A stretch of 64,000 bases of DNA from an uncultured Bacteroidota bacterium (GTDB taxonomy: Bacteria > Bacteroidota > Bacteroidia > Flavobacteriales > Flavobacteriaceae), in NCBI GenBank assembly GCA_902512065.1, contig CABXHU010000003.1, positions 1 through 64,000 on the forward strand. The letters are read 5' to 3'. The notes beneath the pieces are model-generated. The model did no database searches. It was not told the origin of the DNA and saw only the letters and a program-made list of their open reading frames with translations. This document shows positions 1-46,345 of this stretch, in pieces (the first letter of the stretch is position 1; each line of letters opens with the position of its first letter). The position numbers were made by a program, and so were the translations under genes.

Positions 1-900
1 TACACTCACGCTACTCTAAAAGTAAGAAATGATAAAAATATATATTTACACTCTCTAGATCTTAATGATAATATAAAATTTAATGATATTGAAGAACTAC
101 TAAAATATGAAGGAAGTTTTTCTTTAATTAAGTGCGCAATTATGGCTATCAAACCCAATTTTGGTTTTGAATTATTTATACATTCTGATTATCCTATGAG
201 TTCAGGATTGGGAGGCTCAGCTACAGTGACCGCTGTTATCTTAGGTTGTTTTAATCAATTTAGAACTGACAAGTGGAATCAGTATGAAATTGCAGAACTA
301 GCTTTTCAAGCTGAAAGATTACATCTTGGAGTTTCAGGCGGATGGCAAGATCAATATGCCACAGTATTTGGAGGATTAAATTTCATTGAATTTAATAAAG
401 ATCAAAATATTATTAATCCAATTAGACTCAGTGAAGATATTTTACTTGAGTTAGAGGAAAGTTTAGTATTATGTTATACAGGACTTACTCATGATTCTGG
501 AAATATTCATAATGATCAAAAAAAAGAAACTAACAAAGATGATGTTAAACATAGAATTAGATCTAATGTACAGCTGACTTATGAAATGAGAGATAATTTA
601 CTCAAAGGTAAATTAACGGACTTTGGAAAAAATTTACATAATGCATGGATGAATAAAAAAAGTTTTAGCAACAAAATCAGTAATCCCGCTTTAGATAAAA
701 TATATGATGGTGCCATAAAAAATGGAGCTGTTGGCGGAAAACTTTTAGGTGCTGGGGGAGGTGGTTATTTTTTGTTTTATGTACCCCCATTTAAAGTACA
801 TAATCTATTAAAATGGTTAAAAAATAAAAACCTTAACAACACTACTTTTAAGTTCGAAAGTAATGGTCTTCAATCTTGGACAGTAAGACAGAAAAAATGA
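1..900 (+). CDS. GHMP-family sugar kinase, HddA-like (5' partial)
   Basis: Probable D-glycero-D-manno-heptose 7-phosphate kinase, making the 1,7-bisphosphate on the way to a nucleotide-activated heptose. The frame is open from base 1, so the gene starts upstream; an ATG at 142 is internal. 299 residues are visible. The GHMP ATP-binding motif PMSSGLGGSA lies at visible residues 65-74, and the glycine-rich C-terminal GHMP motif GGKLLGAGGGG at about 246-256. The gene ends in an ATGA overlap with the NeuB-fusion gene and sits two genes before gmhA, which supports a heptose substrate. The family also contains mevalonate, galactose and fucose kinases, so the substrate is inferred from context. Confidence 0.85.
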   Translation, partial: YTHATLKVRNDKNIYLHSLDLNDNIKFNDIEELLKYEGSFSLIKCAIMAIKPNFGFELFIHSDYPMSSGLGGSATVTAVILGCFNQFRTDKWNQYEIAELAFQAERLHLGVSGGWQDQYATVFGGLNFIEFNKDQNIINPIRLSEDILLELEESLVLCYTGLTHDSGNIHNDQKKETNKDDVKHRIRSNVQLTYEMRDNLLKGKLTDFGKNLHNAWMNKKSFSNKISNPALDKIYDGAIKNGAVGGKLLGAGGGGYFLFYVPPFKVHNLLKWLKNKNLNNTTFKFESNGLQSWTVRQKK

Positions 901-2795
901 AAATAAATATAGATAAATTTGAAATTGGGAATAAAAGGGTGTTTATTATTGCAGAAGTTGGCAATAATCATAACGGCGATTTTGATAGAGCAAAGTTAAT
1001 GATTGATAAAACTGTTGAAATGGGGGCGGATTGTGTTAAATTTCAAATGAGACAAATTAAACAGCTGTATCGATCAAAAAGTTTAGAAAAAACGGGTGAA
1101 GATTTAGGAACAGAATACATAATAGATCTTTTAAATAAATTTGAATTATCAATAGAACAGCAGAGAGATTTATCTAATTATTGCAAGTCAAAAGGAATAT
1201 TATATATGTGTACTCCTTGGGACACTAAAAGTGTTGAAATATTAGAGACATTTAAAGTCCCAGCTTATAAGGTAGCTTCTGCTGACTTGACAAACTTACC
1301 TTTACTTGATAGTCTAGCAAAAACAAAAAAACCATTGATACTTTCAACTGGAATGAGTAATAATAATGAAATTAAATTAACAGTTGAATTTTTAAATAAG
1401 CGAAAAGTAAAATTTGTTTTATTGCATTGTAATAGTACCTATCCCGCACCAGTTCAAGATATAAATTTGAATTGGATTAACGAGTTAAAGAAGATTCATA
1501 AGTTAGTTGGTTACTCTGGTCATGAAAGAGGAATAAACATATCTCTGGGTGCAGTTGCACTTGGAGCGAAGGTCATAGAAAGACATTTTACACTAGACAG
1601 AAAAATGGAAGGCCCTGATCATGCCGCAAGTTTGGAATTTGATGAATTTAAAAATTTGATTGAGGGTTGTAGAGAAATTGAATTGGCAATGGGTAGTTCA
1701 GACACAAGTGAAAGAAAATTTAGTCAAGGGGAGATGATAAATAGAGAAAATTTAGCCAAAAGTTTAGTTGCTTCTAAAAAATTAGTAAAAGGTCATATTA
1801 TGACTCATAATGATATAAAAGTTCTTAGTCCTGGACAAGGCTTGTCTCCACAAAACTATGATTCATTAATTGGGTTAAGGTTAAAAAGAGACATGGCAAA
1901 AGAAGATTACTTTTTCAGTTCTGATTTAAAAAGCTCAAATCAAGTTATAAAAGACTATAAATTTAAGCGCCCTTGGGGAATACCAGTCAGATTTCATGAT
2001 TTTAATAATTACCTTAATTTAATTAAACCTCCGATGTTTGAATTTCATTTATCTTATTCAGATATGGATTTAGATATTGATAAATACTTATCAGGAACTT
2101 ATGATTGCGGGTTTGTAGTTCATGCTCCAGAATTATTTAAGGGAAGTCATTTAATGGATTTAGCAACACCTGAAATAGAATATAGAAAAATTTCTATGGT
2201 TGAAACTCAAAAAGTTATTGATATTACTAGAAAATTAAAAAAATATTTCCCAAAAGAATTAAAACCTCAAATTGTAGCTAATATAGGTGGTATTAGTATG
2301 GATGCTCCATTTAAAGAGAATATAAAAGAATCATATTATTTACAATTTTTTGAAAGCCTTAATGAACTTAATTTAGAAGGTGTTGAAATAATCCCTCAAA
2401 CTATGGCTCCTTTTCCATGGCATTTTGGTGGACAGAGATATCAAAATATTTTTGTTCATGTAGATGAAATAGCTAAGTATTGTCAAAAATTTGGTATAAG
2501 AATGTGTTTTGATGTTTCGCACAGCATGCTTACATGTAATCATTTTAATAAAGACTTTTATGAATTTGCTGAAAAAATAGCTCCCTATACAGCACACATT
2601 CATATGGGTGATGCTACGGGGGTTAATGGAGAGGGACTTCAAATTGGAGAGGGTGAGATAGATTTTACTAAACTCGGAAAAATATTAAATGAAGGCTGTC
2701 CAAACGCCAGTTTTATACCAGAAATTTGGCAAGGACATAAAAATAATGGCGAAGGTTTTTGGATTGCATTAGAAAAACTTGAAAATTTATTATAA
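897..2795 (+). CDS. NeuB-type ulosonic acid synthase fused to a sugar isomerase TIM barrel
   Basis: Two-domain enzyme of 632 residues. Residues about 1-270 are a NeuB-type PEP-condensing barrel (AEVGNNHNGDFDRAK near the N-terminus; GYSGHERG and ERHFTLDRKMEGPDHAAS carry the two family metal-binding histidines). A SAF/antifreeze-like domain follows at about 280-345, then a xylose-isomerase/AP-endonuclease-2 TIM barrel at about 355-632 (DVSHS, HIHMGDATG, GEGEIDF, PEIWQGH). The ATG at 897 overlaps the upstream stop as ATGA; a TTG 21 bases earlier is less likely. The SAF segment reads LAKSLVAS where many NeuB proteins have RRSL. The protein condenses PEP with an aldose; the C-terminal domain may prepare or epimerise that aldose. 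The substrate is unknown. Confidence 0.85.
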   Translation: MKINIDKFEIGNKRVFIIAEVGNNHNGDFDRAKLMIDKTVEMGADCVKFQMRQIKQLYRSKSLEKTGEDLGTEYIIDLLNKFELSIEQQRDLSNYCKSKGILYMCTPWDTKSVEILETFKVPAYKVASADLTNLPLLDSLAKTKKPLILSTGMSNNNEIKLTVEFLNKRKVKFVLLHCNSTYPAPVQDINLNWINELKKIHKLVGYSGHERGINISLGAVALGAKVIERHFTLDRKMEGPDHAASLEFDEFKNLIEGCREIELAMGSSDTSERKFSQGEMINRENLAKSLVASKKLVKGHIMTHNDIKVLSPGQGLSPQNYDSLIGLRLKRDMAKEDYFFSSDLKSSNQVIKDYKFKRPWGIPVRFHDFNNYLNLIKPPMFEFHLSYSDMDLDIDKYLSGTYDCGFVVHAPELFKGSHLMDLATPEIEYRKISMVETQKVIDITRKLKKYFPKELKPQIVANIGGISMDAPFKENIKESYYLQFFESLNELNLEGVEIIPQTMAPFPWHFGGQRYQNIFVHVDEIAKYCQKFGIRMCFDVSHSMLTCNHFNKDFYEFAEKIAPYTAHIHMGDATGVNGEGLQIGEGEIDFTKLGKILNEGCPNASFIPEIWQGHKNNGEGFWIALEKLENLL

Positions 2796-9022: not shown

Positions 9023-10754
9023 GTTTTTAGTCACAACCGCCTTAAAAGAAACATGGCCTAAAAATCAAGAAATTTTATTTTTAGGAGAATGGTGTAAAAT
9101 ATATTCACAGAATGAAAATACTTTAAATAAATATTATACATTAAAATATCATTGGGATGACAGAAAAAAATTAAGGAGAGATTATTTATACCTGGATAAG
9201 TTATTTGAAAAACTTTTAATTGAACTTGCTACAGATTTAAATAATATACATAAAACTAAATTTACAGTTAATTATTGGAGAATTTTAATTGGACCATGGT
9301 TAGGGTACTTTACTCATATTATTTATGATCGTTGGTATATGGCAAATACTGCACTTAAAAATTTTAAAGAATTATCTACTATTATTCTTGAGCTAGATGA
9401 GACTAAACTAGTTCCAAATGATATGACTCATTTTAATAATTTGTTTATTTCAGATTTATGGAACCACTTTATTTATGGAAAAATAATTAATGAATTAAAT
9501 ATTTCTAATGTATTTTATAAAAAATCAAATACAAATCAAAAGAGTAATAAAATCAGAAAAACATTTAGAGAAAAAATTAAATTTTTATACTCAAAATTTA
9601 TAAATAAGTATTCATTAAATAGTTCGTATTTATTAATTAATACATCTCTATCGAAATTAAACTATTTTAAATTATTACTTAAATTAAAAGTAATCCCAGT
9701 TCCAAATGGTGTTTTTTCAATTAAGACTAGTAAGCCTAGTAAAATCTTTCGAAATTTTAAAATTAACTCTGAGAATAGGGTTTCAAAAAGTAATGATTTT
9801 GAAGCTATTCTAAGACAACTAATAGTCAAGCAAATACCAATTTCTTATGTTGAGTCTTTTTCAGAACTGAGTAAGATGTCTCGTACATTAAATTGGCCAA
9901 GGTCACCTAAGACTATATTTACATCCCATTCACATAATTCAGATGATGTCTTTAAGCAGTATGCCGCAAGATGTATTGAGAATAGTAATACAAAATTAAT
10001 TATAGGTCAACACGGAGGTTATTTTGGAATCGGAGAATATGGTTTTACTGAAAAACATGATATAGAAATATGTCATAAATATTTAAGTTGGGGTTGGAAA
10101 TCAGACGATAAAAAAGTATTGCCAATAGGACAACTTATATTTAAAAAATCAATTAATATTAAAAGTTTTAAAAAAAAACACTTACTATTAGTTACAGCAA
10201 CTCTTCCTAGATATAGTTATTTTATTTATTGTGTTGCGATAGCATCTCAATGGTTATATTATTTTAAAGATCAGTGTGAGTTTTTTGATAATTTAGATAA
10301 TGCAATTAAAGGGGAAACAATAGTAAGATTACATAAAAACGACTATAAGTGGAATCAAGCCAAAAGATGGAAGGATAAATTTCCAAATATTAAAATCAAT
10401 AATGCAAAAAAAAATATTTTAGTTCAATTAAAAAAATGTAGGTTATTTGTATCTACATACAATTCAACAACCTATTTAGAGTCAATTGCCATGAATATTC
10501 CTACTGTAATATATTGGGATATAAATTATTGGGAACTTAAAGATTCTGCTATTCCCTTTTTTAATAAATTTAGAAAAGCAGGAATCTTTCATGACAGTCC
10601 TTCATCTGCAGCAGCTCATATAAACTTAATTTGGGAGAATGTTGATGAGTGGTGGAATTCAGTTGAAGTTAAATCTGCTATTTACGATTTTAACAATAAT
10701 TACAATAAAAAATCAAAAGATCTAATAAATAAATTATTTCAAGTAATAAAATAG
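9000..10754 (+). CDS. LIC12162-family surface-carbohydrate transferase
   Basis: 584-residue protein matching the LIC12162 family first described from Leptospira O-antigen loci. The N-terminus FLVTTALKETWPKNQEILFL then EWCKIYSQ, and the later YHWDDRKKLRRDYLYLDKLFEKLL, are characteristic. A glycosyltransferase-like C-terminal half contains GQHGGYFGIGEYG and FVSTYNSTTYLESIAMNIP. The ATG at 9000 is chosen because the family start motif follows within eight codons; an in-frame ATG at 8925 lies deep inside the SDR. It probably transfers a sugar or assembles a surface glycan at the cytoplasmic face. The reaction is not known. Confidence 0.8.
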   Translation: MVVEAAGRFLVTTALKETWPKNQEILFLGEWCKIYSQNENTLNKYYTLKYHWDDRKKLRRDYLYLDKLFEKLLIELATDLNNIHKTKFTVNYWRILIGPWLGYFTHIIYDRWYMANTALKNFKELSTIILELDETKLVPNDMTHFNNLFISDLWNHFIYGKIINELNISNVFYKKSNTNQKSNKIRKTFREKIKFLYSKFINKYSLNSSYLLINTSLSKLNYFKLLLKLKVIPVPNGVFSIKTSKPSKIFRNFKINSENRVSKSNDFEAILRQLIVKQIPISYVESFSELSKMSRTLNWPRSPKTIFTSHSHNSDDVFKQYAARCIENSNTKLIIGQHGGYFGIGEYGFTEKHDIEICHKYLSWGWKSDDKKVLPIGQLIFKKSINIKSFKKKHLLLVTATLPRYSYFIYCVAIASQWLYYFKDQCEFFDNLDNAIKGETIVRLHKNDYKWNQAKRWKDKFPNIKINNAKKNILVQLKKCRLFVSTYNSTTYLESIAMNIPTVIYWDINYWELKDSAIPFFNKFRKAGIFHDSPSSAAAHINLIWENVDEWWNSVEVKSAIYDFNNNYNKKSKDLINKLFQVIK

Positions 10755-11012: not shown

Positions 11013-12074
11013 ATGATAAATTTTTCAAAACAAATCGCTTTCAAAGATAGATTAGTTGGCATCAATCATCCTGCATATTTTGTCGCTGAAATTGGTGCAA
11101 ATTTTGATAATTCACTAGATAAAGCAAAAAAACTTTGTGATGCAGCAAAAGAAGCTGGAGCTGATTGTGCAAAATTTCAGAGCTTTAAATCCGAAAAAAT
11201 AGTTGCCCCTAAAGGTTTTCAGAAGATGCAATTAAAAGGTGTTCATGGATCATGGGGCCGACCAGTAAGTGAAGTTTTTAAAGATGTTGAATTTCCTAGA
11301 GATTGGCATCCTATTGTAAAAGAACATTGTGATAATATTGGAATTCATTTTTCCACTTCACCATATGATTTTGAAGCAGTTGATTTATGTATGGATTTAG
11401 ATTTACCCTTTATAAAGATTGGATCTGGTGAAATTACATGGTTAGAAATGATAGAGAAAATTGCATCTAAACAAAAGCCGATTGTATTGGCAACAGGTGA
11501 TGCAACTCTATCAGAAATAGACGAAGCAATTAAAGTTATTGAATCTACAGGAAATAAAAATTTAATATTATTACAATGTATTACAAATTATCCTTCAATG
11601 ATCGAGAGTGCAAATATCAATGTATTAAAAACATACCAGAATGCATTTGATGTATTAACAGGTTATTCTGATCACTCACCTGGAGATGTTGTAATACTTG
11701 GTTCAATTGCACTAGGTGGTGTTTTTGTAGAAAAACATTTTACTTTTAATAAAGAAGATAAAGGCCCTGATCACCCACATTCAATGAATGTGGAAGAATT
11801 CAAATCTATGGTTTCCAGAGTAAGACAGCTTGAGCAAGCGATGGGAAGCACTAAAAAGTTTGTTGTTGAGGAAGAACATGAAACAGTTTTGGTTCAACGT
11901 AGAGGATTATATGCAGCAAAAGATATTCCTTTAGGTAAGGTTATAGATAATTCAGACCTTATTGAGCTTCGGCCAGCACTTGGTATTCTTCCAAAGTATA
12001 AAAGCACTCTAATTGGAAAAAAGTTTAAAACTCATATTGAAGCTGGACAGCCAATCTATTGGAAAAATTTTTAA
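11013..12074 (+). CDS. NeuB-type ulosonic acid synthase (second paralogue)
   Basis: 353-residue PEP-dependent synthase of the N-acetylneuraminate/legionaminate/pseudaminate synthase family. The barrel includes AEIGANFDNSLDKAKKLCDA, SGEITWLEMIEKIA, GYSDHSPGD and EKHFTFNKEDKGPDHPHS; the two metal-binding histidines (SDHS and EKHF) are kept. The C-terminal SAF domain (about 290-353) keeps RRGLYAAKDIPLGKVI. The usual N-terminal NHNG is replaced by NFDN. Unlike the gene at 897 it has no fused isomerase. Context (SpsF-type cytidylyltransferase, GSA-type aminotransferase) suggests it makes a different acid from the first NeuB. Confidence 0.87.
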   Translation: MINFSKQIAFKDRLVGINHPAYFVAEIGANFDNSLDKAKKLCDAAKEAGADCAKFQSFKSEKIVAPKGFQKMQLKGVHGSWGRPVSEVFKDVEFPRDWHPIVKEHCDNIGIHFSTSPYDFEAVDLCMDLDLPFIKIGSGEITWLEMIEKIASKQKPIVLATGDATLSEIDEAIKVIESTGNKNLILLQCITNYPSMIESANINVLKTYQNAFDVLTGYSDHSPGDVVILGSIALGGVFVEKHFTFNKEDKGPDHPHSMNVEEFKSMVSRVRQLEQAMGSTKKFVVEEEHETVLVQRRGLYAAKDIPLGKVIDNSDLIELRPALGILPKYKSTLIGKKFKTHIEAGQPIYWKNF

Positions 12075-14118: not shown

Positions 14119-15418
14119 AGGACAAAAGCTATATAAAAAGGCAAAAAAACTGATTCCAGGTGGAACAATGTTACTTTCTAAAAGACCTGAAATGTTTTTA
14201 CCAGAAAATTGGCCCTCTTATTTTTCAAGAGCAAAAGGCTGTAAAATTTGGGATCTTGAAGGAAAAGAGTTAATAGACATGTCTATTATGAGTATTGGAA
14301 CAAATACACTGGGTTACGGTCATGATGATGTTGACAATGCAGTCTTTGAAGTCATAAAAAAGGGAAATATGAGCACATTGTGTTGCCCTGAAGAAGTTAA
14401 ATTGGCTGAAAAATTAGTAGAAATAAATCCTTGGGCAGAAATGGTTCGATTTGCTAGATCTGGGGGAGAAGCAAATTCGATTGCTATCAGAATTGCTAGG
14501 GCTGCAAGCGGAAAAGATAAAGTTGCTATTTGTGGTTATCACGGATGGCATGATTGGTATTTATCAGCAAATCTCAAATCTGGGGATAATTTATCTGGAC
14601 ATTTGTTACCTGGATTATACACAGCTGGAGTACCAAGTACATTAAAAGACTCAGTTTTGACTTTTCAGTACAACAACTATGAAGAGTTATTGAGTTTAGT
14701 TAAAAATAATGATATCGGGATAATAAAAATGGAAGTTGTTAGAAATTTTAGTCCTGAAGATAACTTTCTTCAAAAAGTAAGAAAACTAGCAACAGATAAA
14801 AATATTATTTTAATTTTTGATGAGTGCTCATCTGGATTTAGAGAAACATTTGGCGGCATTCATAAAAAATTCGGAGTAGAGCCTGATATGGCTATGTTCG
14901 GAAAGACAATTGGAAACGGGTATGCCTTGACAGCAGTATTAGGAAAGAAACCGATAATGGAAGCTGCCCAAAAAACATTTATAAGTAGTACGTTTTGGAC
15001 TGAAAGAATTGGGCCAACTGCATCATTAGCGACTCTTAAGGTCATGGAAGAAATAAGGTCATGGGAAATAATTACTGAAATAGGTAAAAAAATGCAATTA
15101 GGATGGAAAGATTTAGCATCTCAAAATAATTTAGAAATAGAAATTTATGGAATTCCAGCAATGAGTTCTTATTCATTTAAGTCTATTAATTCACTTGCTT
15201 ACAAAACATTAATCACTCAAGAAATGTTAAAAAAAGGAATTTTAGCAAGTACTAGTTTTTATGCCTCAATTGCACATAAAAGTTCTTACATGGAAAAGTA
15301 TTTTAATGAACTTAACGAGGTTTATAAAATCATAAAAAAATGTGAAAAAAAAGAAATAGATATTAATAAAATATTGGAAGGACCCATTTGTCACTCAGGA
15401 TTTAAGAGATTAAATTAA
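14102..15418 (+). CDS. Glutamate-1-semialdehyde aminomutase-like class III aminotransferase
   Basis: 438-residue PLP enzyme of the GSA-aminomutase class. The PLP lysine is K268 in FGKTIGNGYALTAVLG; IIKMEVVRN and LIFDECSSGFRETFGGIHKK complete the cofactor site. The ATG at 14102 overlaps the cytidylyltransferase by 17 bases; an ATG at 14111 is an alternative. It is clearly a different enzyme from the class III protein at 4928. Paired with SpsF and NeuB homologues, it most likely installs an amino group on a ulosonic acid or its precursor rather than serving tetrapyrrole synthesis. Confidence 0.85.
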   Translation: MIKMGKGQKLYKKAKKLIPGGTMLLSKRPEMFLPENWPSYFSRAKGCKIWDLEGKELIDMSIMSIGTNTLGYGHDDVDNAVFEVIKKGNMSTLCCPEEVKLAEKLVEINPWAEMVRFARSGGEANSIAIRIARAASGKDKVAICGYHGWHDWYLSANLKSGDNLSGHLLPGLYTAGVPSTLKDSVLTFQYNNYEELLSLVKNNDIGIIKMEVVRNFSPEDNFLQKVRKLATDKNIILIFDECSSGFRETFGGIHKKFGVEPDMAMFGKTIGNGYALTAVLGKKPIMEAAQKTFISSTFWTERIGPTASLATLKVMEEIRSWEIITEIGKKMQLGWKDLASQNNLEIEIYGIPAMSSYSFKSINSLAYKTLITQEMLKKGILASTSFYASIAHKSSYMEKYFNELNEVYKIIKKCEKKEIDINKILEGPICHSGFKRLN

Positions 15419-15513
15419 TCATAATCAATTTAAATTTTCAAGTTATTTATGTGTTCACAAAAATTTAATAATAGATATATTGCCTAATTATAAAATGTAA
15501 ATTATTGAGTCGT

Positions 15514-16485
15514 ATGGATAATAAAGATTTGTATAATAAAAATGAAGCTAAACAATTTTACGAAAATAGATATGAGGATAATTATATGGATGATTGGCCA
15601 TTAGAAAAAAAACAAAGAATTTCATATGTGATTCAAAGTTTACAATTACCTGATTATGGTGTTGCATTGGATTTTGGATGCGGATGTGGTGTTTTCACAA
15701 ATGTTATACAAAAGCAACTTCCAAAATGGAAAGTCTATGGTTGTGATATTAGCAATAATGCAATTGAAAATGCTAAAAACCGCTTCCCTCAGTGTTCTTT
15801 TTTTGTTTCTGATTCTGATCAAGTCCCAAATATCAAATTTGATTTTTTGTTTTCTCACCATGTACTTGAACATGTTTTTGACATTAAAAAAATTATTAAG
15901 GATATAAATAATTTTTTAAAACCTAAATCCTTTACTTTTCATGTGCTTCCTTGCGGAAACAAAGGAAGCTTTGAATATGAGGTTTGTAGTATGAGAAAAG
16001 ATGGGATAAATAAGAAAATGGAAAATAGATTCTTTTTTGAAGACGAAGGTCATGTTCGAAGATTGACAACAGATGAAACAAATAAATTAATGAGAAAATA
16101 TTCATTTTTTTTAAATAAAGAGTTTTATAGCAATCAATATTATGGTGCTGTTAAATGGATTTCTCAATCACACCCAAAATTTATTTTAGAGTTTACAAAT
16201 CCGTCTAAAGGTAAAAACAATAAAGCAATCAAGTTTTTGTTTTGGATTCAGTTAAATTTTCTTTTATTATTTGCTCTTCAATTGCCCATGAACCTTGCTA
16301 AGCGAATAAAACTCATTAGAAATAAAAAGATATATCATTATTGTCTAATTGTTATAAATTTAATTCCTTCATTAATTTCTTATCCTTTTTACACTTTCAT
16401 TAATTTCAAGGCTGATGAAGAATGGAAGTCTAAAAATCAATCAATAAATGGAAGTGAAATGTACTTAATTTATAATAGAAAATGA
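15514..16485 (+). CDS. SAM-dependent methyltransferase with hydrophobic C-terminal region
   Basis: 323-residue class I methyltransferase. Motif I is VALDFGCGCGVF (about residues 48-59), motif II YGCDISNNAIENA, and LFSHHVLEHVFD follows. The C-terminal half holds two hydrophobic stretches (FLFWIQLNFLLLFALQLPM and YHYCLIVINLIPSLISYPFY) that could attach it to the membrane. The ATG at 15514 is chosen over a TTG nine bases upstream. A 95-base gap separates it from the aminotransferase. The likely role is methylation of a lipid-linked or nucleotide-linked sugar; the acceptor is unknown. Confidence 0.78.
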   Translation: MDNKDLYNKNEAKQFYENRYEDNYMDDWPLEKKQRISYVIQSLQLPDYGVALDFGCGCGVFTNVIQKQLPKWKVYGCDISNNAIENAKNRFPQCSFFVSDSDQVPNIKFDFLFSHHVLEHVFDIKKIIKDINNFLKPKSFTFHVLPCGNKGSFEYEVCSMRKDGINKKMENRFFFEDEGHVRRLTTDETNKLMRKYSFFLNKEFYSNQYYGAVKWISQSHPKFILEFTNPSKGKNNKAIKFLFWIQLNFLLLFALQLPMNLAKRIKLIRNKKIYHYCLIVINLIPSLISYPFYTFINFKADEEWKSKNQSINGSEMYLIYNRK

Positions 16486-21077: not shown

Positions 21078-21761
21078 ATGAAAGCATTATGGCAACAAAT
21101 ACCATCCACAGAAATTACAAAAATTTATTGTAATACAGATTTTGATGCTGTGGTTTTAGATTTAGAACATGGAGTTTTTAATAATGAAACTCTATATTCT
21201 TTAATCCAATTAATTAACGCGAGCAATAAGCTCTCTTTTGTGAGAGTAACAGAACCTTCAAAATCTCAAATTAGATTATTACTTGATAGTAATGTTTCTG
21301 GTATTATTTTTTCAACTCTTGAAATTGAACAAACTAGTAAAATAAGAGAATGGTGTTTGTTCCCTCCCATTGGTAAAAGAGGTCAAGGTTTAGTTTCTGA
21401 AAATAATTGGGGTGATGACAAATTACAGATAAATAAAGTTAAGTTAATAGCTCAAATTGAGAATAAAGAATCTATTTATCAGTTACCAAACATTGTTAAA
21501 ACTAATTTATTTGAGTATTATGTACTTGGACCTTACGATTTAACCGCAGATTTAGGCTGTGTGGCAGATTGGGAAAATAAAAAGTATATAGATTTAATTG
21601 AAAAGTTTAATAATGAAATCCCAATTGAAAAAAGAGGAGTTCATATTGTTTCTAATATTGAAAATGAATATAGAAATAAGTTTAAACAATATGGATTTAT
21701 TGCTTTAGGAATGGATACAATAATAGTTAAATCTGGAATTAAAAATTTAGAAAGTATATGA
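21078..21761 (+). CDS. HpcH/HpaI-family pyruvate aldolase
   Basis: 227-residue class II aldolase of the HpcH/HpaI family, which reversibly condenses pyruvate with aldehydes. Family residues are visible: the catalytic His in DLEHGVFN, the substrate Arg in FVRVTEPSK, the metal Glu in IAQIENKES and the metal Asp in LGPYDLTADLG. FPPIGKRGQG matches the usual PPxGxRG loop. The gene opens a six-gene run joined by overlaps or direct contacts and ends in an ATGA overlap with a KdsB homologue. That pairing suggests anabolic use: building a 3-deoxy-2-ulosonic acid for CMP activation. Degradative use is the family's usual role, so this is inference. Confidence 0.85.
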   Translation: MKALWQQIPSTEITKIYCNTDFDAVVLDLEHGVFNNETLYSLIQLINASNKLSFVRVTEPSKSQIRLLLDSNVSGIIFSTLEIEQTSKIREWCLFPPIGKRGQGLVSENNWGDDKLQINKVKLIAQIENKESIYQLPNIVKTNLFEYYVLGPYDLTADLGCVADWENKKYIDLIEKFNNEIPIEKRGVHIVSNIENEYRNKFKQYGFIALGMDTIIVKSGIKNLESI

Positions 21762-22528
21762 ATATAATAGGAATTATTCCAGCCAGAATGGCGTCTTCAA
21801 GGTTTCCGAATAAGCCAATGGCTGATATTTTAGGAATGCCGATGATTGGACATTGTTTAAAAAGAAGTTTGATGTGTAATATGTTTAGTGACGTATATGT
21901 TGCTACATGTGATAAAATAATATATGATTATATAGAAAGTATAGGTGGTAAAGCAATAATGACATTAGATACACATGAAAGAGCATCAGATCGAACTGCA
22001 GAAGCAATGTTGAAAATTGAAAAAAAAATTGGAGAAAAAATTGATATTGTTGTTTTACTTCAGGGTGATGAGCCTATGACTAATGATTCAATGATAGAAT
22101 CTGCTATTAAGCCTTTATTAGATGATAATAATTTAAAAATCACAAATTTATATGCCACAATAGGTAGCATTGAGGAATTTGAAAATCCAAACGAAGTAAA
22201 AGTGGTCATAGATCGTGAAAGCAATGCACTTTATTTTTCAAGAGAGCCTATTCCATCCAGAAAAAAGGGAATTACTGATGTTCCTATGTTTAAGCAAGTT
22301 TGTGTAATTCCTTTTAAAAGAGACTTTCTTTTAGAATATAACGAAATGGAACAAACACAACTAGAAATAATTGAATCGGTTGACATGATGAGGGTTTTAG
22401 AAAATGGAATCAAAATTAAAATGGTATATATTCAAGAAGATAATTTTTCAGTAGATACTCAGGAAGATCTTGAAAATGTAATTGAATTGATGAAGAAAGA
22501 TGAATTAGTAAAATCTTATATTAAATGA
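21758..22528 (+). CDS. kdsB: CMP-Kdo synthetase-like cytidylyltransferase (KdsB family)
   Basis: 256-residue KdsB-family enzyme. It has IPARMASSRFPNKPM at residues 7-21, THERASDRTAEA (KdsB usually has H-x-SGTDR), VLLQGDEPM, and ALYFSREPIPS. The substitution in the SGTDR region and its context (aldolase upstream, dehydrogenase downstream, both joined by 4-base ATGA overlaps) suggest it activates a Kdo-like acid other than standard Kdo. The housekeeping kdsB for lipid A core would then lie elsewhere in the genome. It is the third CMP-transferase family in the locus. Confidence 0.83.
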   Translation: MNIIGIIPARMASSRFPNKPMADILGMPMIGHCLKRSLMCNMFSDVYVATCDKIIYDYIESIGGKAIMTLDTHERASDRTAEAMLKIEKKIGEKIDIVVLLQGDEPMTNDSMIESAIKPLLDDNNLKITNLYATIGSIEEFENPNEVKVVIDRESNALYFSREPIPSRKKGITDVPMFKQVCVIPFKRDFLLEYNEMEQTQLEIIESVDMMRVLENGIKIKMVYIQEDNFSVDTQEDLENVIELMKKDELVKSYIK

Positions 22529-23451
22529 GAATTCTTTTAACAACTACTTCTTTTACAGATACACCTGGTGAACATCAAGAAAAATTAAAAAGCTTAAATT
22601 ATAAAATTGATGTTTTAAGAGGTCCTCTAAAGGAAGAAATATTATTACCAATAATAAGTAATTATGATGGCATAATTTGTGGAGATGATGAAATTACAAG
22701 AAAAGTTATTGCTTCTGGAAAAAAAGGAAAATTAAAAGTTATATCAAAATATGGTATTGGGTTAGATAAAATTGATTTAAAGTCTGCAGATGAATTTGGA
22801 ATAAAGGTTTGTAAAACACCAGGTGTAAATCATGTTACAGTTTCTGAACATATTCTAGCATTATTATTTTCTTATTATAAAAATATTCATTTAGAATACA
22901 ATATTACCAAAGACGGAAAATGGGAAAGACTAATTGGGCATGAGATTTATGGAAAAAAAATAGGTATTGTTGGATATGGAAGAATAGGACATGAATTAGC
23001 TAAACGCTCTAAAGCTTTAGGCTTAATCGTTAAAGCTTATGATCCATACGTAACTAATAGATTGATAATTGATAGTAAGGTTGATTTTATAAGAAACATA
23101 AATGAACTTGTAAAAGATATTGACATTTTAGCTTTAACTTTACCATTAAATGAAGAGACGAAAGGAATGATTGATGAGAATGTAATTTCCTCTGCTAGTA
23201 ATAAAATAGTGATTGTAAATACATCAAGGGCTTTAATAATTGATCAAAAAAGTTTAATTAAATCTTTGAAAAATAATAAAATCAAGGCTTATTTAACAGA
23301 CGTTTTAGAAGAAGAACCAATGATAAAAAACCACCCATTAAATAATTTTAAAAATGTTATTATTACCCCTCATATTGGCTCTCGAACTTATGAAAGTGTC
23401 CAGAGACAGGGTTTAATGGCTGTTGAAAATTTAACAAAAAACATAAAATAA
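22525..23451 (+). CDS. D-2-hydroxyacid dehydrogenase (phosphoglycerate dehydrogenase-like)
   Basis: 308-residue NAD-dependent 2-hydroxyacid dehydrogenase, about the size of SerA without its regulatory domains. The cofactor motif is GIVGYGRIGHELAKRSKALG. The catalytic triad positions are visible as the Arg of NTSRALIID, the Glu of LEEEPM and the His of TPHIGSRT. It overlaps the KdsB gene by 4 bases and touches the next gene by one base. It may oxidise or reduce a 2-hydroxy/2-keto acid precursor of the sugar acid, for example supplying the aldolase substrate. A role in serine synthesis is unlikely from context. Confidence 0.85.
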   Translation: MRILLTTTSFTDTPGEHQEKLKSLNYKIDVLRGPLKEEILLPIISNYDGIICGDDEITRKVIASGKKGKLKVISKYGIGLDKIDLKSADEFGIKVCKTPGVNHVTVSEHILALLFSYYKNIHLEYNITKDGKWERLIGHEIYGKKIGIVGYGRIGHELAKRSKALGLIVKAYDPYVTNRLIIDSKVDFIRNINELVKDIDILALTLPLNEETKGMIDENVISSASNKIVIVNTSRALIIDQKSLIKSLKNNKIKAYLTDVLEEEPMIKNHPLNNFKNVIITPHIGSRTYESVQRQGLMAVENLTKNIK

Positions 23452-24368
23452 TGTCAAAAGTATTAGTTATTGGAGGTTCAGGCTTTTTAGGAAGTCATGT
23501 TTCTGATGTTTTAACAAATAAAGGTCACGAGGTTTATATTTTCGACTTAGTAAAGTCAAAATATTTATTACCCAATCAAAAAATGATTATTGGAGATATC
23601 CTGAATAAGGATTTGATTGACCAATCTATTGAAAAAGTAGATTATGTTTATCATTTTGCAGCAATTGCAGATATTAAAGAAGCTAAAGATAACCCCATTA
23701 AATCAGCAAGATTTAATATTATAGGAACGTTAAACATCTTAGATGCTTGTGTGAAATACAAAATTAAAAGAATTATTTTTTCAAGCTCTATTTATGTTTA
23801 CTCAAATCATGGGTCTTTTTATAGATCTACAAAACAATCTTGTGAGTTATTCATTGAAAACTATTTTGAAGAATATAAATTAGAATATACTATTTTAAGA
23901 TATGGTTCATTATATGGAACTAGGGCAAATAATTTTAATTTCATTAATAATGTAATTAAACAAGCTCTTTTAAATAAAGAGATTATTAGAAAAGGAGATG
24001 GACAAGAAACCAGAGATTATATAAATGTTATTGATGCAGCTATTTCATCTGTAGATGTTTTAAGTGAAGATTACATCAATAAATATGTGATGATAACTGG
24101 TAATCAAACTAGAAAAGTGAATGAATTGTTAGAAATGATTAATGAAATGATGAACAACGAAATAAAAATCACATATGACAGTAAAAATTATGACGGACAT
24201 TATCAACTTACACCATATTCTTTTCGTCCAAAAGTAGCTCTAAAAATGATATCAAAAAATCATCATGATCTTGGTCAGGGAATTTTAGACTGTATTTATG
24301 AAAATTACCAAACTCTTAAAAAAGAGGGGCAATCCATTTTATATAATAAAATTAAAAAAAATGGATAA
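23451..24368 (+). CDS. NAD-dependent sugar epimerase/dehydratase
   Basis: 305-residue extended SDR. It has the GGSGFLGSH cofactor motif at residues 8-16, IGD-type Asp before DILNKDLID, FAAIADIKEA, and the catalytic Y124 and K128 in YRSTK. The C-terminal SFRPKVALKMI resembles UDP-glucose 4-epimerase relatives. The first base of its ATG is the last base of the preceding TAA stop. It would epimerise, dehydrate or reduce a nucleotide-linked or free sugar in this cassette. The substrate cannot be assigned. Confidence 0.82.
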   Translation: MSKVLVIGGSGFLGSHVSDVLTNKGHEVYIFDLVKSKYLLPNQKMIIGDILNKDLIDQSIEKVDYVYHFAAIADIKEAKDNPIKSARFNIIGTLNILDACVKYKIKRIIFSSSIYVYSNHGSFYRSTKQSCELFIENYFEEYKLEYTILRYGSLYGTRANNFNFINNVIKQALLNKEIIRKGDGQETRDYINVIDAAISSVDVLSEDYINKYVMITGNQTRKVNELLEMINEMMNNEIKITYDSKNYDGHYQLTPYSFRPKVALKMISKNHHDLGQGILDCIYENYQTLKKEGQSILYNKIKKNG

Positions 24369-25023
24369 TTCATTCATTTATCTATCGTATTTTCTTGATG
24401 AAAATACTCCGCTTTATGGTGGTGAAAGGGGTATTAAAATGTTTGCAGATAGATCTATTAAAGATGGGGATAGTGCGAATACCAAAAGAGTTTCATTTCA
24501 TAATCATTCAGGGACCCATATCGATTTTCCAAATCACTTTTTTGATTTAGGAAAAGTTGCCCAGGATTATGATGCTTCATTTTGGATTTTTAATAACGTT
24601 TACTTGCAAATACAATCTGCAAGCTCAGATGAGTTGATCAAGTTAAGTGAAGAAGATTTAGCATCTATTCCTGTAAATACAGAGTTAATAATAATTAAAA
24701 CAGGATTTTATGAATTTAGAAATGAAGAAAAGTACTGGATGAATAATCCAGGTATTAGTCCAGAAGTTGCAGATAAGTTAAGAAAACGTTGTCCAGAATT
24801 AAGAGCAATCGGTATGGATTTTATTTCACTTACATCATTTCAAAACCGTCAAATTGGAAGGGTTGCACACCGTGAGTTTTTAGGAAAATCTCCCATTTTA
24901 TTAATTGAGGATATGGACTTAAATTATTTAAATAAAAGCCCAATTCAAGTTATAGGAATTCCTTTATTATTAAAAAATGCTGATGGCGCTCCAATTAGTA
25001 TAATTGCACGAATAAAAAAATGA
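24361..25023 (+). CDS. Cyclase-family metal hydrolase (kynurenine formamidase-like)
   Basis: 220-residue member of the cyclase family (PF04199). The metal-site motif HxGTHxDxPxH is complete as H49-S-G-T-H53-I-D55-F-P-N-H59. The ATG at 24361 overlaps the epimerase stop by 8 bases; an in-frame ATG at 24298 would add 21 residues from inside the epimerase. Known members hydrolyse N-formylkynurenine or cyclise and open amides and lactones. In this cassette it may open a lactone or remove an acyl group from a sugar acid, but no direct evidence shows the substrate. Confidence 0.82.
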   Translation: MDNSFIYLSYFLDENTPLYGGERGIKMFADRSIKDGDSANTKRVSFHNHSGTHIDFPNHFFDLGKVAQDYDASFWIFNNVYLQIQSASSDELIKLSEEDLASIPVNTELIIIKTGFYEFRNEEKYWMNNPGISPEVADKLRKRCPELRAIGMDFISLTSFQNRQIGRVAHREFLGKSPILLIEDMDLNYLNKSPIQVIGIPLLLKNADGAPISIIARIKK

Positions 25024-25628
25024 ATAAAGGAATAATATTTGATTTTGATGGAGTAATATGTGATTCAGTCAATGTAAAAACAGAAGCATTTAAATTAATG
25101 TATAAAGAATATGGAAAAGAAGTTGTTGAAAAAGTAGAAAAATACCACAATGAACATGGAGGAATTTCACGTTACGAAAAATTTCGTTATTTCCATAAAG
25201 AATTTTTAGGAATTAAATTGAAAGAGGATGAAGTATTCAAAATGGCTGAAGTTTTTTCATCAATAGTATTACAGAAAGTTATAGATTCAGATTATATTCC
25301 AGGGGTCATTGAATTTATAAAGTCAAGATTCAAGAATACGGCTTTATTTATTTGTACTGGAACACCCGAAACAGAAATTTTAGAAATTCTTGAAAGTAAA
25401 AAAATTAAAAAATATTTCACTGGAATTTATGGATCTCCAAAAAGTAAAGTAGAAATTATTAATTTAATAATAAATAACTTTAAGATTAAAAGAGATCAAC
25501 TCGAGTTTTATGGGGATGCAATGACAGATTATAACGCAGCTAATATTACTAAGGTAAAATTTATTGGAGTACTTAATAAAACAACTTCTTTTCCTCTTGA
25601 AACAACTGTAATAAAAAATTTTTTCTAA
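25020..25628 (+). CDS. HAD-superfamily phosphatase
   Basis: 202-residue haloacid-dehalogenase hydrolase of the phosphoglycolate-phosphatase type. The nucleophile and acid-base pair are D8 and D10 in IFDFDGVICDS; motif II is ICTGTP, motif III the lysine in SPKSKVE, and motif IV FYGDAMTDYNAA. It overlaps the cyclase gene by 4 bases and ends the aldolase cassette. It would remove a phosphate from the ulosonic acid before CMP transfer, as KdsC or NeuC-linked phosphatases do in PEP-based routes. The HAD remnant near 46000 resembles its C-terminal half. Confidence 0.83.
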   Translation: MNKGIIFDFDGVICDSVNVKTEAFKLMYKEYGKEVVEKVEKYHNEHGGISRYEKFRYFHKEFLGIKLKEDEVFKMAEVFSSIVLQKVIDSDYIPGVIEFIKSRFKNTALFICTGTPETEILEILESKKIKKYFTGIYGSPKSKVEIINLIINNFKIKRDQLEFYGDAMTDYNAANITKVKFIGVLNKTTSFPLETTVIKNFF

Positions 25629-26405: not shown

Positions 26406-28262
26406 TTGAATAGTACGGTACTAAATTTAACTTTAAAGAAAGAAAATAAATCTGATTTTTTGAAAGTTTATTGGAATTCAGTAAAGTTCGAAAATGATGG
26501 AATTTCTATATCAAGATATTTAGAAAAAAATGAAAATAGTATCAGAAAAAAATATATTACTTTCATTCATGATTTAGGAGAATATAAACTAATAAGAGGA
26601 ACAAATATTATAAATCATTTTCAATTTAAAAGTGGATATAATGTATGGTGGATGAGTTTATTGGTTGAAAAAAATCTAGTTAAGTCAAGAGATATTTCTG
26701 ATTGTTTAAAGCTTTTTGCATTTGAGGAACTGGTTAAAGAATATAAACCAGTACAGATTAAAATGATTACTAGTAATTATAAATTGCTAAAGACTTTAAA
26801 GTTATTTTGTAAAAATGGAGGAATTGAATTTAATTCAAATTATCAAATACATAAATCAAATTCTCTAAAAAATAAAATACCAAAAATAATTCAAGGGTTT
26901 ATTTATATTTTAAAGAGTTTTTTTGTTAACTGGTCATTAAGACTAGTCAAAAAAAAATGGAACTCAGGAAAAAACCAAATTTTTATTTTCTCCAATTTAA
27001 TAAATTTCGATCAAAAATATACAAACAATTCAAATGTTAGTTCTACATATTTAGGTACACTTCCACTTCTTTTTCAACAAAAAAAATTGAAAATGAATTT
27101 CCTTAATAATTTTTTTGCTACTCCAAAATTTCCAAACAGACCTAATGCAATTTCACAAATAAATAAAATAAATAGTAATTCTGATAAACACGGACAGAAA
27201 CACCAATTTTTGTATAGTTTTTTAGATTTTACCATTTTTTTCAAAGTATTATTCCAATTTATAAAAATTCAAATTTTTAGTACATTACTTTTGGGAGTCT
27301 TTAATGCTTTTAGTCCGAAGGGCTCTAATCTTAATTTCTGGTACTTGCTAAAAAATGATTGGGGAAATTCTACTAAGGGTACGGTACTTTCAGAAAACCT
27401 AATTCTAATTGCTCTAATAGATAAAGTAATTAAGAAATTAGATCAACAAATACTTGGACTTTATTTACATGAAAATAGTGGATGCGAAAGAGCTTTTATT
27501 CAGGCATGGAAAAAGTATCAAAAAGCTCCTTTAATTGGCATACAACATGCAACTATACGCTATTGGGATTTAAGATATTTTGAAGACCTAAGAGTCTTTA
27601 CAAAAAAATCAAATATTCCTAGACCAGATAAGTTAGCTGTAAATGGCCCAATAGCAAAAGGAATATTGATGAATTATGGATATTGCGAGTCTGAATTAGT
27701 TGAAACTGAGGCACTTCGTTACTTAAATAATTATAATAAAACTGTATTTAAAACTAAACAAATTGACACTAAAATTAAAATTTTATTGTGTGGTGATATT
27801 GATTTTGAATCAACAAGTGCTATGCTTCGATGTGTTGAGAAAGCATTGACTGAGTTAAAAATGTTAAGTATTGATCAAATAGAAATTACTTACAAGTCTC
27901 ATCCGATTAATAATTTAGATCTTAGTAAATTTAAAATTCCCAACCTAAAAGTTACCAATAAGAGTATAAAACAGATTATTAATTCTTATGATTTAATGAT
28001 AGCCCCTGATTCTACTTCAGCAGCGGTAGAAGCATATCAACTTGGGTTAAAGGTTATTTTATTTCTTTATTTAGAAAGAGTTAATTTTAGTCCACTAAAG
28101 GGCGTGAAAAATGTGTCATTTATTAGTACAAGCGATGAATTAAAGAAATTGCTGTCAAGTAAACATATTTTGGATAAAAAAAAATATTTAAAAACTTTTT
28201 TTTGGTCGGATCAAAATCTAAAAAGGTGGAAAACAACACTAATGCAGTTAGGATTAAAATGA
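26406..28262 (+). CDS. Leptospira-type surface carbohydrate biosynthesis protein (LIC13510-like)
   Basis: 618 residues resembling the LIC13510-type O-antigen protein family. The C-terminal half is GT-B-like: LYLHENSGCERAFIQAWKK, IGIQHATIRYWDLRYFEDLR, KLAVNGPIAKGILMNYGY, YKSHPINN and MIAPDSTSAAVEAYQLGLKV. The start is TTG at 26406, one base after the preceding stop; no nearby ATG serves. A basic, moderately hydrophobic region lies at about 150-180. It is probably a glycosyltransferase acting on the lipid-linked glycan. Together with the LIC12162-type gene it links this locus to Leptospira-style O-antigen assembly. Confidence 0.72.
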   Translation: MNSTVLNLTLKKENKSDFLKVYWNSVKFENDGISISRYLEKNENSIRKKYITFIHDLGEYKLIRGTNIINHFQFKSGYNVWWMSLLVEKNLVKSRDISDCLKLFAFEELVKEYKPVQIKMITSNYKLLKTLKLFCKNGGIEFNSNYQIHKSNSLKNKIPKIIQGFIYILKSFFVNWSLRLVKKKWNSGKNQIFIFSNLINFDQKYTNNSNVSSTYLGTLPLLFQQKKLKMNFLNNFFATPKFPNRPNAISQINKINSNSDKHGQKHQFLYSFLDFTIFFKVLFQFIKIQIFSTLLLGVFNAFSPKGSNLNFWYLLKNDWGNSTKGTVLSENLILIALIDKVIKKLDQQILGLYLHENSGCERAFIQAWKKYQKAPLIGIQHATIRYWDLRYFEDLRVFTKKSNIPRPDKLAVNGPIAKGILMNYGYCESELVETEALRYLNNYNKTVFKTKQIDTKIKILLCGDIDFESTSAMLRCVEKALTELKMLSIDQIEITYKSHPINNLDLSKFKIPNLKVTNKSIKQIINSYDLMIAPDSTSAAVEAYQLGLKVILFLYLERVNFSPLKGVKNVSFISTSDELKKLLSSKHILDKKKYLKTFFWSDQNLKRWKTTLMQLGLK

Positions 28263-44971: not shown

Positions 44972-45934
44972 CTACTTTTTAGCAAACACCCAAACATGAG
45001 AACTTAATCTGTTTTTTATTAAAAATTCTTGAAATTCTCGAACTACAGAATCTCCTCTTGATTTTAAAACTTTAATAAACTCTGTGATCCTTCCGCTATT
45101 TAAGACAATATCTACGTCTAACACACCAGGTGTCAATACATCCACTTCAGAAAACCCAGCCCTTTTAAATAATAATTCAAACCCTTTTAAGCTTGGAAAG
45201 TTTAAATGGTGTGGTGGCGAGATACTATTTGAATTTTCGCCTAAAGTTAAAATATCAAATCCTTCATATCCAAGTGTGGTTATTAGACAATAACCGTCTT
45301 TTTTCAATAAGTTATTTATAGACTTTACAAAATCCACAGGCTTATTTACATGTTCTAAAACCTCAAGACTAACAACAAAATCAAATTTATTATTCCATTC
45401 TTCTGAATATTCTACACTTTTTTGAAGAACAGAAAATCCTTTGTCAGTTATTATACTTGAAGATAATTCTCCTGGCTCAATCGCAAAATAAGAAATGTCT
45501 TCTTTTATTTTCTGGAGTTCTTCAAGAAAAACACCTGATCCAGCACCCACATCACACAAATTAGAAATCGGTATTTTCTTTTCACTAATTAGATTAAACA
45601 ATTGAATTGCTTTTTTTTTAAATATTTTTTCTCTTCTATTTTCTTCTACTTTAGGTAGAAATTCTTCAAACCAAAACTTTGCAGACGAACTGTTTTTGTA
45701 AAAACTATTTAAAGTTTTAAGAGAAGGCCTTGGATTACAAAAAAGTGTTCCACAACTTTCACAAATACTGTACTTAAATCCATCTTTTTTATACTTCAAT
45801 TTTACTAATGCAGATTCGCACGAAACACAATTGATTGTTTCAAAATTTGAATTATCAAAAGATTCTGCATCTTTTTTTGCAAGATTCAGGTATTTTTCGA
45901 ATAATTTTCTTGGTCTTATTTCTGATTCTTTCAT
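44972..45934 (-). CDS. SAM-dependent methyltransferase with N-terminal cysteine-rich motif
   Basis: 320 residues. A CxxC pair (C36, C39) and a second set (C58, C61, C66) suggest a zinc ribbon, as in Bacteroidota class I methyltransferases of glycan loci. The SAM motif is LCDVGAGSGVFLEEL (about residues 126-140), followed by FDFVVSLEVLEHVNKP and LLKKDGYCLITT. The ATG is at 45934. It is followed downstream by the rhamnose operon after a 162-base gap. It probably methylates a sugar or a side group; a partner HAD gene just upstream has decayed. Confidence 0.83.
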   Translation of the reverse strand: MKESEIRPRKLFEKYLNLAKKDAESFDNSNFETINCVSCESALVKLKYKKDGFKYSICESCGTLFCNPRPSLKTLNSFYKNSSSAKFWFEEFLPKVEENRREKIFKKKAIQLFNLISEKKIPISNLCDVGAGSGVFLEELQKIKEDISYFAIEPGELSSSIITDKGFSVLQKSVEYSEEWNNKFDFVVSLEVLEHVNKPVDFVKSINNLLKKDGYCLITTLGYEGFDILTLGENSNSISPPHHLNFPSLKGFELLFKRAGFSEVDVLTPGVLDVDIVLNSGRITEFIKVLKSRGDSVVREFQEFLIKNRLSSHVWVFAKK

Positions 45935-45944
45935 TTATTTATTT

Positions 45945-46250
45945 ATTTATTTAGAACATTTTTTATTTCAGAAAAATCTTTATTTAAAAAAAATTCTTTT
46001 TTAATTTATTCCTCTATTGTATCTGCCTATAAACCTGATGTGATTAGTTTTATCAGCATCTCTATTCTATTAAAACATCTCCAATAAAGAATACTTCATT
46101 TTTGTTATATCCACATACATTAAGTGTGTGTTTTTACATGTAAGTCTTTTTTATTATCAGTCAAACCAACTAATTTTATCTCATATTTCACTTAATTTAT
46201 TATGAATTTTGATGCCAATTACTTCATCTAAATTTTCAACAACTAAACCT
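45945..46250 (-). pseudogene. Decayed HAD-family phosphatase
   Basis: Four pieces in shifted frames on the minus strand read like the C-terminal half of a HAD hydrolase: GLVVENLDEVIGIKIHNKL (about 46249-46186), NEVFFIGDVLIE (about 46104-46065) ending at a TAG, RDADKTNHIRFIGRYNR (46063-46013) and NKDFSEIKNVLNK (45985-45947). FIGD then a D-rich helix then FIG is HAD motif IV and its following strand. Stops and frame changes separate the pieces, so it is non-functional. It fills a 411-base gap with no intact gene. Confidence 0.5.
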
Positions 46251-46345
46251 AAAACTCATATCCCATATGATTTCTTCTACACAAGAAAACTAATGATATA
46301 TATTCTAATTATGTCTTTTAATTTTTAGTTAACTAAATACTAAAA

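Follow-up and report, generated by a model that had tools for sequence, protein, structure and literature searches.

A six-gene operon in the 64,000-nt stretch of flavobacterial DNA analysed here (the window) probably builds a CMP-activated acidic sugar with the help of a pyruvate-type aldolase. The preferred reading, to which we assign a probability of roughly 0.6, is an aldolase-dependent, PEP-independent route that makes and activates a CMP-linked 2-ulosonic acid other than Kdo, destined for a surface glycan. The aldolase and CMP-transferase genes are linked across genomes, catalytic residues are intact, the sugar pocket of the transferase is altered, the unit contains no PEP-dependent synthase, and the cassette occurs in carriers without a Kdo pathway; from these observations we infer the reactions of the route, their order, the donor, the acceptor and the product. 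To our knowledge, all characterised routes to CMP-ulosonic acids build the carbon skeleton with PEP.

The cassette consists of six intact, overlapping ORFs on the forward strand (21078-25628), and an ORF check of the window reproduced every junction described in the original prediction (in gene order ATGA, ATGA, one base, 8 bases and ATGA). All six proteins exceed their Pfam cut-offs. A divergent HpcH/HpaI-type class II aldolase (ALD; 21078-21761; PF03328, 57.4 bits against a cut-off of 25) is followed by a KdsB-family CMP-transferase of a distinct clade (21758-22528; PF02348, 159 bits), a D-2-hydroxyacid dehydrogenase of the phosphoglycerate-dehydrogenase type (DH; 22525-23451; PF02826/PF00389), an extended SDR of the epimerase/dehydratase type (EPI; 23451-24368; PF01370, 134.7 bits), a metal-dependent hydrolase of the "cyclase"/kynurenine-formamidase fold (CYC; 24361-25023; PF04199, 61.5 bits) and a HAD-superfamily phosphatase (HAD; 25020-25628; PF13419, 64.7 bits). 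The longest ORF of the fifth gene begins at 24298, and the ATG at 24361 is the start that gives the 8-base overlap. Catalytic motifs are retained in the enzymes other than the aldolase: R235/E264/H283 are conserved in DH, whose nearest solved relatives are phosphoglycerate dehydrogenases; Y124/K128 are invariant in EPI; CYC, closest among solved structures to kynurenine formamidases, carries an HxGTHxDxPxH motif; and D8/D10/D166/D170 are invariant in HAD.

ALD retains the full HpaI catalytic and metal set (D42, H45, R70, E149 and D175, HpaI numbering), just as had been read from the sequence at the outset. Two further residues, Tyr153 and His189, are specific to the cassette and replace HpaI A174 and L212, respectively, in every member. 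The AlphaFold model (pLDDT 87.7) predicts the TIM barrel of HpcH, which is also the top PDB match (2v5j; TM-score 0.80, probability 1.00). In vitro, sugar-like aldehydes serve PF03328 enzymes as acceptors for pyruvate or hydroxypyruvate (PMC7610986). Sequence searches within the phylum returned relatives at only about 24–31%, and it was through them that the pairing with KdsB came to light. The window ALD itself sits on a long branch, is without one Arg that is invariant in other cassette aldolases and has a shortened loop of low model confidence, so its function could have shifted from that of its relatives.

The cassette transferase passes the NCBIfam kdsB model TIGR00466 (164.1 bits against a cut-off of 155.2), a model that fails to tell its clade from that of canonical KdsB. 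In a tree built by a quick method, the cassette KdsB proteins form a single clade on their own branch, apart from the canonical enzymes (SH-aLRT 98). The CTP and two-metal residues (E. coli K19, D100 and D235; R10, R15, R78, Q98 and R157) are kept in practically all 82 cassette KdsB sequences. Metal and Lys roles in KdsB have been described, and Kdo binding has been assigned, at the domain level only, to the domain that holds H181, Y185, E210 and Q211 (PMC3149649). These four positions read Q/I/D/M in 73 of the 82 sequences, with near variants in nearly all others, and the window protein carries Q180/I184/D209/M210. The side chains of the canonical quartet are presumably those that contact Kdo in the E. 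coli complex; their systematic replacement weakens the initial description of the activated product as "Kdo-like". The single canonical-type pocket in the clade belongs to a locus without ALD (L111). Against the aldolase-based idea there would have stood a transferase taking only normal Kdo in a genome with no other kdsB; the window genome holds a second, canonical KdsB.

The linkage of ALD to this KdsB clade is far beyond chance. Among 80 loci fetched by cassette KdsB sequence (26 further relatives were left out), ALD lies within 9 kb and always on the same strand in 70, or in 54 of the 55 with full flanks, and the two genes overlap by 4 bases in 15. Control loci around ordinary KdsB contain ALD in 0 of 30 and 0 of 60 cases. 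Relatives of the unit occur in over a dozen phyla of bacteria and, among archaea, in a single lineage, Methanoperedens. The co-occurrence that the original prediction had proposed as a check is widespread, and this recurrence, together with the empty controls, rules out chance or insertion in a single genome. A phage or plasmid origin was also rejected, as protein searches returned KdsB only (at most 40% identity) and in viral contigs the KdsB matches reached no more than 42% identity and came without the aldolase. The other cassette genes accompany the 80 loci less uniformly (DH in 65, HAD in 51, EPI in 47 and CYC in 20), and the surroundings of the core alternate between two sets of accessory genes. 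Two further window genes are possible partners: a TIGR04326 surface-carbohydrate protein and candidate transferase (26406-28262, forward strand; 370 bits), with relatives in 6 of the 80 loci, and a SAM methyltransferase (44972-45934, reverse strand), with relatives in 27, which scores 362 bits against the gene adjoining the aldolase in one locus (L086). The 6-phosphogluconolactonase genes near some cassettes seem to belong to general metabolism in Nitrosomonas; they were left uncounted. A search of open-access papers, with preprints outside its scope, found no description of the ALD-KdsB unit.

As first noted, no PEP-dependent synthase is encoded within 21078-25628. Two NeuB-family genes lie elsewhere in the window (876-2795 and 11013-12074), about 9–20 kb upstream of the cassette, and a canonical KdsA is present on another contig of the genome. 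A KdsA-like protein occurs in 0 of the 80 loci and a NeuB-like gene in 20, at more than 4 kb in 19 of them and at 1.7 kb in one (L110). KdsA, Kdo transferase and LpxC were not found in Nitrosomonadaceae, Methanoperedens and Chloroflexota carriers (host genome completeness not stated), and 12 Nitrosomonadaceae-type/Devosia genomes, likewise of unstated completeness, gave no KdsA over the cut-off and no PF04413 Kdo transferase. In the genomes of four loci (L090, L092, L098 and L099), NeuB is absent or represented only by a DAHP-synthase-like match, and three Nitrosomonas isolates are without convincing NeuB as well as without KdsA. In two of these isolates (L092 and L098) the cassette KdsB is the only CTP_transf_3 protein. 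Retention of the pair in genomes without KdsA, some of them also without convincing NeuB, points to a non-PEP origin of the sugar. Of the proposed non-PEP route to an activated Kdo-like sugar, then, the synthase-free unit and the carriers without KdsA favour the route, whereas the likeness to Kdo has lost ground.

In the proposed pathway, ALD would build the carbon skeleton from pyruvate, or from hydroxypyruvate supplied via DH, and a sugar-derived aldehyde. HAD may act as the phosphatase, like KdsC in the Kdo pathway, either ahead of the aldol reaction or following it; EPI and CYC could shape or open an intermediate; and the cassette KdsB would use CTP to convert the free 2-ulosonic acid into its CMP-sugar. 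A more specific version is doubtful: a third, PEP-independent CMP-ulosonate route, shared by many phyla of bacteria and by Methanoperedens and including Kdo-less ammonia oxidisers, in which DH and HAD would yield hydroxypyruvate and ALD, whose active-site Tyr and His are invariant, would add it to a sugar aldehyde to give a 3-hydroxy (non-deoxy) 2-ulosonic acid as its CMP-sugar.

Co-occurrence by itself is no proof of a common substrate, given the alternating accessory sets, and ALD and KdsB might serve different sugars of one glycan, the transferase activating an ulosonic acid from, for example, NeuB while ALD degrades or supplies another block. Of 50 host genomes, 45 contain NeuB, that of the window among them. 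This arrangement is nevertheless unlikely, if still worth serious consideration, because the two genes are almost constantly adjacent, with a 4-base overlap in 15 loci, NeuB clusters come with a NeuA-type transferase of their own and are mostly at least 4 kb away, and certain hosts have no convincing NeuB. Activation of ordinary Kdo for a capsule, in the manner of KpsU and with the remaining genes devoted to an unrelated sugar, would fit the TIGR00466 score and the presence of KdsA in most hosts, the window genome among them. It is improbable in view of the separate clade and its altered pocket, the carriers, archaea included, without KdsA, Kdo transferase and LpxC, and the separate canonical KdsB retained by hosts with Kdo. 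As a general role, canonical Kdo supply was rejected on the changed pocket, the Kdo-less carriers and the lack of KdsA-like proteins at all 80 loci.

Chemistry other than aldol reactions also occurs among PF03328 proteins, and ALD could be another C-C lyase or synthase, for instance SbnG-like, whose acid is linked differently. Fold matches of ALD include the citrate synthase SbnG and macrophomate synthase, and ALD reaches none of the HpaI, GarL or RhmA equivalog cut-offs, all scores being far below (HpaI 67 against 368.8); the complete aldolase catalytic set and the pyruvate aldolases as nearest fold matches make this very improbable. The most remote explanation is that the transferase activates a heptulosonic acid from the shikimate intermediate DAHP, dephosphorylated by HAD, such that the skeleton is still PEP-derived. 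DAHP-synthase-level matches in several carriers without KdsA and the AroB-like cyclizing family TIGR04425 in the alternative accessory module would accord with it, but it leaves no role for the near-constant ALD and DH.

The preferred aldolase-based route shares with the Kdo pathway (KdsD, KdsA, KdsC and KdsB) a terminal KdsB-family CMP-transferase, a HAD phosphatase and a free 2-ulosonic acid as the expected substrate. It differs in the HpcH/HpaI aldolase that takes the place of PEP-dependent KdsA, a HAD from another subfamily, the four replaced pocket residues and its occurrence in Kdo-less organisms. Like the nonulosonic acid pathways (NeuB/NeuA and relatives), it is proposed to provide CMP-activated 2-ulosonic acids for surface glycans; the unit, however, is without NeuB, and its transferase is KdsB-like rather than NeuA-like. 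ALD has the fold and catalytic set of HpaI, GarL, RhmA and SwHKA, but the named catabolic members degrade their substrates, whereas ALD sits in a biosynthetic island beside a CMP-transferase. Rare ulosonic acids include the 4-deoxy-2-hexulosonic acid of the E. coli K3 surface glycan, as cited in PMC10433991, and Dha of plant RG-II, whose nucleotide form is undefined (PMC12168206). These two show that ulosonic acids beyond Kdo and the nonulosonic acids exist. For a 3-deoxy-pentulosonic acid ascribed to a Klebsiella capsule, a search of the open-access literature gave no paper, and it plays no part in the argument.

The original prediction is thus partly supported, in a form far more general than its single-sequence view allowed. 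If the preferred reading is true, this conserved aldolase-based unit would add an entry reaction of a new kind and an activated sugar of a new class, and many of the proteins that carry the kdsB annotation today, some from Kdo-free organisms, would need renaming. The cassette is a source of candidates for surface-glycan acidic sugars of unexplained origin.

The six open reading frames of the cassette at 21078-25628, and the overlaps between them, are as the original prediction described. By Pfam family they encode an HpcH/HpaI aldolase (PF03328), a CMP-transferase (PF02348) of a KdsB-family clade here termed KdsB*, a dehydrogenase (PF00389/PF02826), an SDR protein (PF01370), a PF04199 hydrolase, and a HAD protein (PF13419). 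Use of the window aldolase as query against 395 genomes of the phylum returned relatives of only about 24-31% identity, four of which adjoin a gene 57-63% identical to the window's KdsB. An alignment of the window KdsB with three of these four neighbors was then scanned against 84,980 species genomes, yielding 106 relatives, 80 of which were kept (L-numbered loci). HMM searches place an aldolase within 9 kb of KdsB* in 70 of the 80 loci, which were picked by KdsB* sequence with a small bias, because the three added queries were selected as neighbors of an aldolase and the 80 include some of their contigs. Where at least 8 kb is available on each side of KdsB*, the count is 54/55, and two of the ten loci scored as missing the aldolase (L036, L040) have one that is split or cut. 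The two genes share a strand in 70/70 cases; with the aldolase upstream (55 loci), they overlap by 4 bases in 15 and are separated or overlapped by no more than 30 bases in 32. No aldolase was found within 1.5 kb of canonical KdsB, the CMP-Kdo synthetase, in 30 phylum genomes, or within up to 8 kb of 60 KdsB genes on viral contigs, and at the same 1.5-kb distance one is present at 55/69 KdsB* genes. The pairing thus recurs across genomes and is real. Second KdsB-like copies lie next to the cassette at L033:18046-18855 and L083:9237.

Aldolase-bearing loci occur, by record title, in Bacteroidota, Campylobacterota, Thermodesulfobacteriota, Pseudomonadota, Nitrospirota, Ignavibacteriota, Chlorobiota, Omnitrophota, Deferribacterota, Chloroflexota, Bdellovibrionota, Bacillota, Verrucomicrobiota, a Nealsonbacteria MAG, and Methanoperedens archaea. 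Most carriers are MAGs, so that any single assignment could be a binning error; among the named isolates are several Nitrosomonas, Devosia subaequoris, Nitratidesulfovibrio, and Bacteriovorax.

The same searches detect the dehydrogenase in 65 of the 80 loci, HAD in 51, SDR in 47, and the PF04199 protein in 20. Aldolase, KdsB*, and dehydrogenase form the core of the unit. Around it, 52 loci have SDR and/or HAD; 10 have an AroB-like protein (above the TIGR04425 cut-off) and/or a Gfo/Idh protein, often accompanied by SIS and short-chain SDR proteins; three have both sets. Loci with the alternative set include L081, L085, L086, L054, L065, L082, L088, L090, and L109. The PF04199 hydrolase is found with either set. 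Two nearly exclusive accessory sets surround one core, an arrangement suggesting that production of the activated acid falls to the core and that the sets would provide or modify the acceptor. In Nitrosomonas, a divergently oriented family of ~420 aa, weakly like BFO_1060 glycosyltransferases, lies 1.5 kb from KdsB*, upstream of it at L092, L094, L096, L098, L099, L102, and L104, and is a candidate for the transferase that uses the activated sugar. A methyltransferase family is present in 27 loci. Its window member (44972-45934) belongs to a close minus-strand group at 44972-48507 with formyltransferase-like and DUF4910/DUF2172 genes; relatives of the formyltransferase and DUF4910 proteins appear in a few KdsB* loci, with both at L068.

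The window cassette is embedded in a large surface-glycan island containing glycosyltransferase-like proteins (TIGR04326, TIGR04331), nonulosonic-acid genes, and rhamnose-type genes. SIS, NeuA-like, and SDR genes lie next to an unusual 639-aa fusion (876-2795) that joins NeuB, SAF, and a xylose-isomerase-like barrel (AP_endonuc_2), the group forming a separate cluster of nonulosonic-acid type. Between 11013 and 15418, a second NeuB-like gene (11013-12074) is followed by an SpsF-like cytidylyltransferase (13351) and by a glutamate-1-semialdehyde-aminomutase-like protein (14102), which together may form another sugar-acid cluster.

Sequence comparisons set KdsB* apart from ordinary KdsB. In a tree built by a quick method from 82 KdsB*, 32 canonical, and 12 viral KdsB proteins, 81/82 KdsB* fall on a single branch (SH-aLRT 98); the exception, L111, branches among canonical KdsB, shares their pocket, and is without an aldolase. 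KdsB* retains the CTP/metal residues (E. coli R10, R15, K19, R78, Q98, D100, R157, D235), and H181, Y185, E210, and Q211, whose side chains we take to be the exact Kdo contacts, are replaced by Q, I, D, and M in 73/82, nearly all others being near variants. The resulting pocket is less polar than the canonical one. Kdo binding is a function of the C-terminal domain of KdsB (PMC3149649).

Host gene content bears on whether the unit simply activates Kdo. The original prediction, a non-PEP route to an activated Kdo-like sugar, would be undercut by a KdsB accepting only normal Kdo in a genome with no other kdsB; the window's genome (a 1.27-Mb draft, 44 contigs, 77% complete) contains a separate canonical KdsB, so that case does not hold, and it also contains KdsA. 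Separate canonical copies occur in the hosts of L043, L081, and L085 as well. KdsA exceeds cut-off in 36/50 carrier genomes. Eleven Nitrosomonadaceae-type genomes and Devosia have no KdsA over cut-off and no PF04413 Kdo transferase, with LpxC present in Devosia only; KdsA, PF04413, and LpxC are all missing from two Methanoperedens, two Chloroflexota, the Nealsonbacteria MAG, and a Desulfovibrio (L063). Of the nine genes for Kdo2-lipid A, Nitrosomonas europaea is reported to have lpxK alone (PMC3087551). In hosts that lack Kdo, it cannot be the KdsB* substrate unless it is taken up. As to PEP-dependent synthases, no KdsA-like protein is encoded in the 80 loci; 20 of them encode a NeuB-like protein, at a distance of mostly 5-10 kb and in one case 1.7 kb. 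NeuB was not found in the host genomes of L090, L098, and L099, and the sole match in that of L092 (34 bits) lies in a DAHP-synthase-like frame. The L092 and L098 hosts encode no CTP_transf_3 protein other than KdsB*; a second match in the L099 host is under cut-off.

A KdsB-type enzyme requires a free 2-ulosonic acid, and among the enzymes that accompany KdsB* the aldolase alone belongs to a C-C bond-forming family. Single exceptions aside, cassette aldolases retain HpaI D42, E44, H45, R70, E149, and D175. In 70/70, Tyr takes the place of HpaI A174 and His that of L212, and both changes are present in the window's protein. The window aldolase sits on a long branch, with a median identity of 25% to the others (44% among those others); it is missing an Arg common to all the rest and has a shortened loop 101-114 of low AlphaFold confidence; the remainder is modeled well (pLDDT 87.7), and the model matches HpcH/HpaI aldolases (TM-score 0.80). 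Since the five other window proteins are much closer, at about 50-70% identity, to those of other Bacteroidota cassettes, this aldolase either was replaced or underwent fast evolution. L043 suggests that such replacement does occur: stop codons interrupt the aldolase copy upstream of KdsB* (9262-9990), and downstream of HAD lies an intact one from another clade (15022-15783), unless a sequencing error accounts for the pattern.

In vitro, members of PF03328 join pyruvate, and in some cases hydroxypyruvate, to glycolaldehyde, glyceraldehyde, erythrose, and other acceptors (PMC7610986). The phosphoglycerate-dehydrogenase-type dehydrogenase and the phosphatase could convert 3-phosphoglycerate to hydroxypyruvate; an alternative of equal standing is that HAD acts later, removing the phosphate of the aldol product in a KdsC-like manner. 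The PF04199 protein might open a lactone, as originally proposed, but the solved structures closest to it are kynurenine formamidases.

No description of the unit was found in the open-access full-text literature. KdsB* passes the TIGR00466 and PRK13368 cut-offs, so automatic annotation would name it 'kdsB', and this label may be the reason that the unit escaped notice. Comparative genomics strongly predicts that the unit is a variant of CMP-ulosonate biosynthesis.
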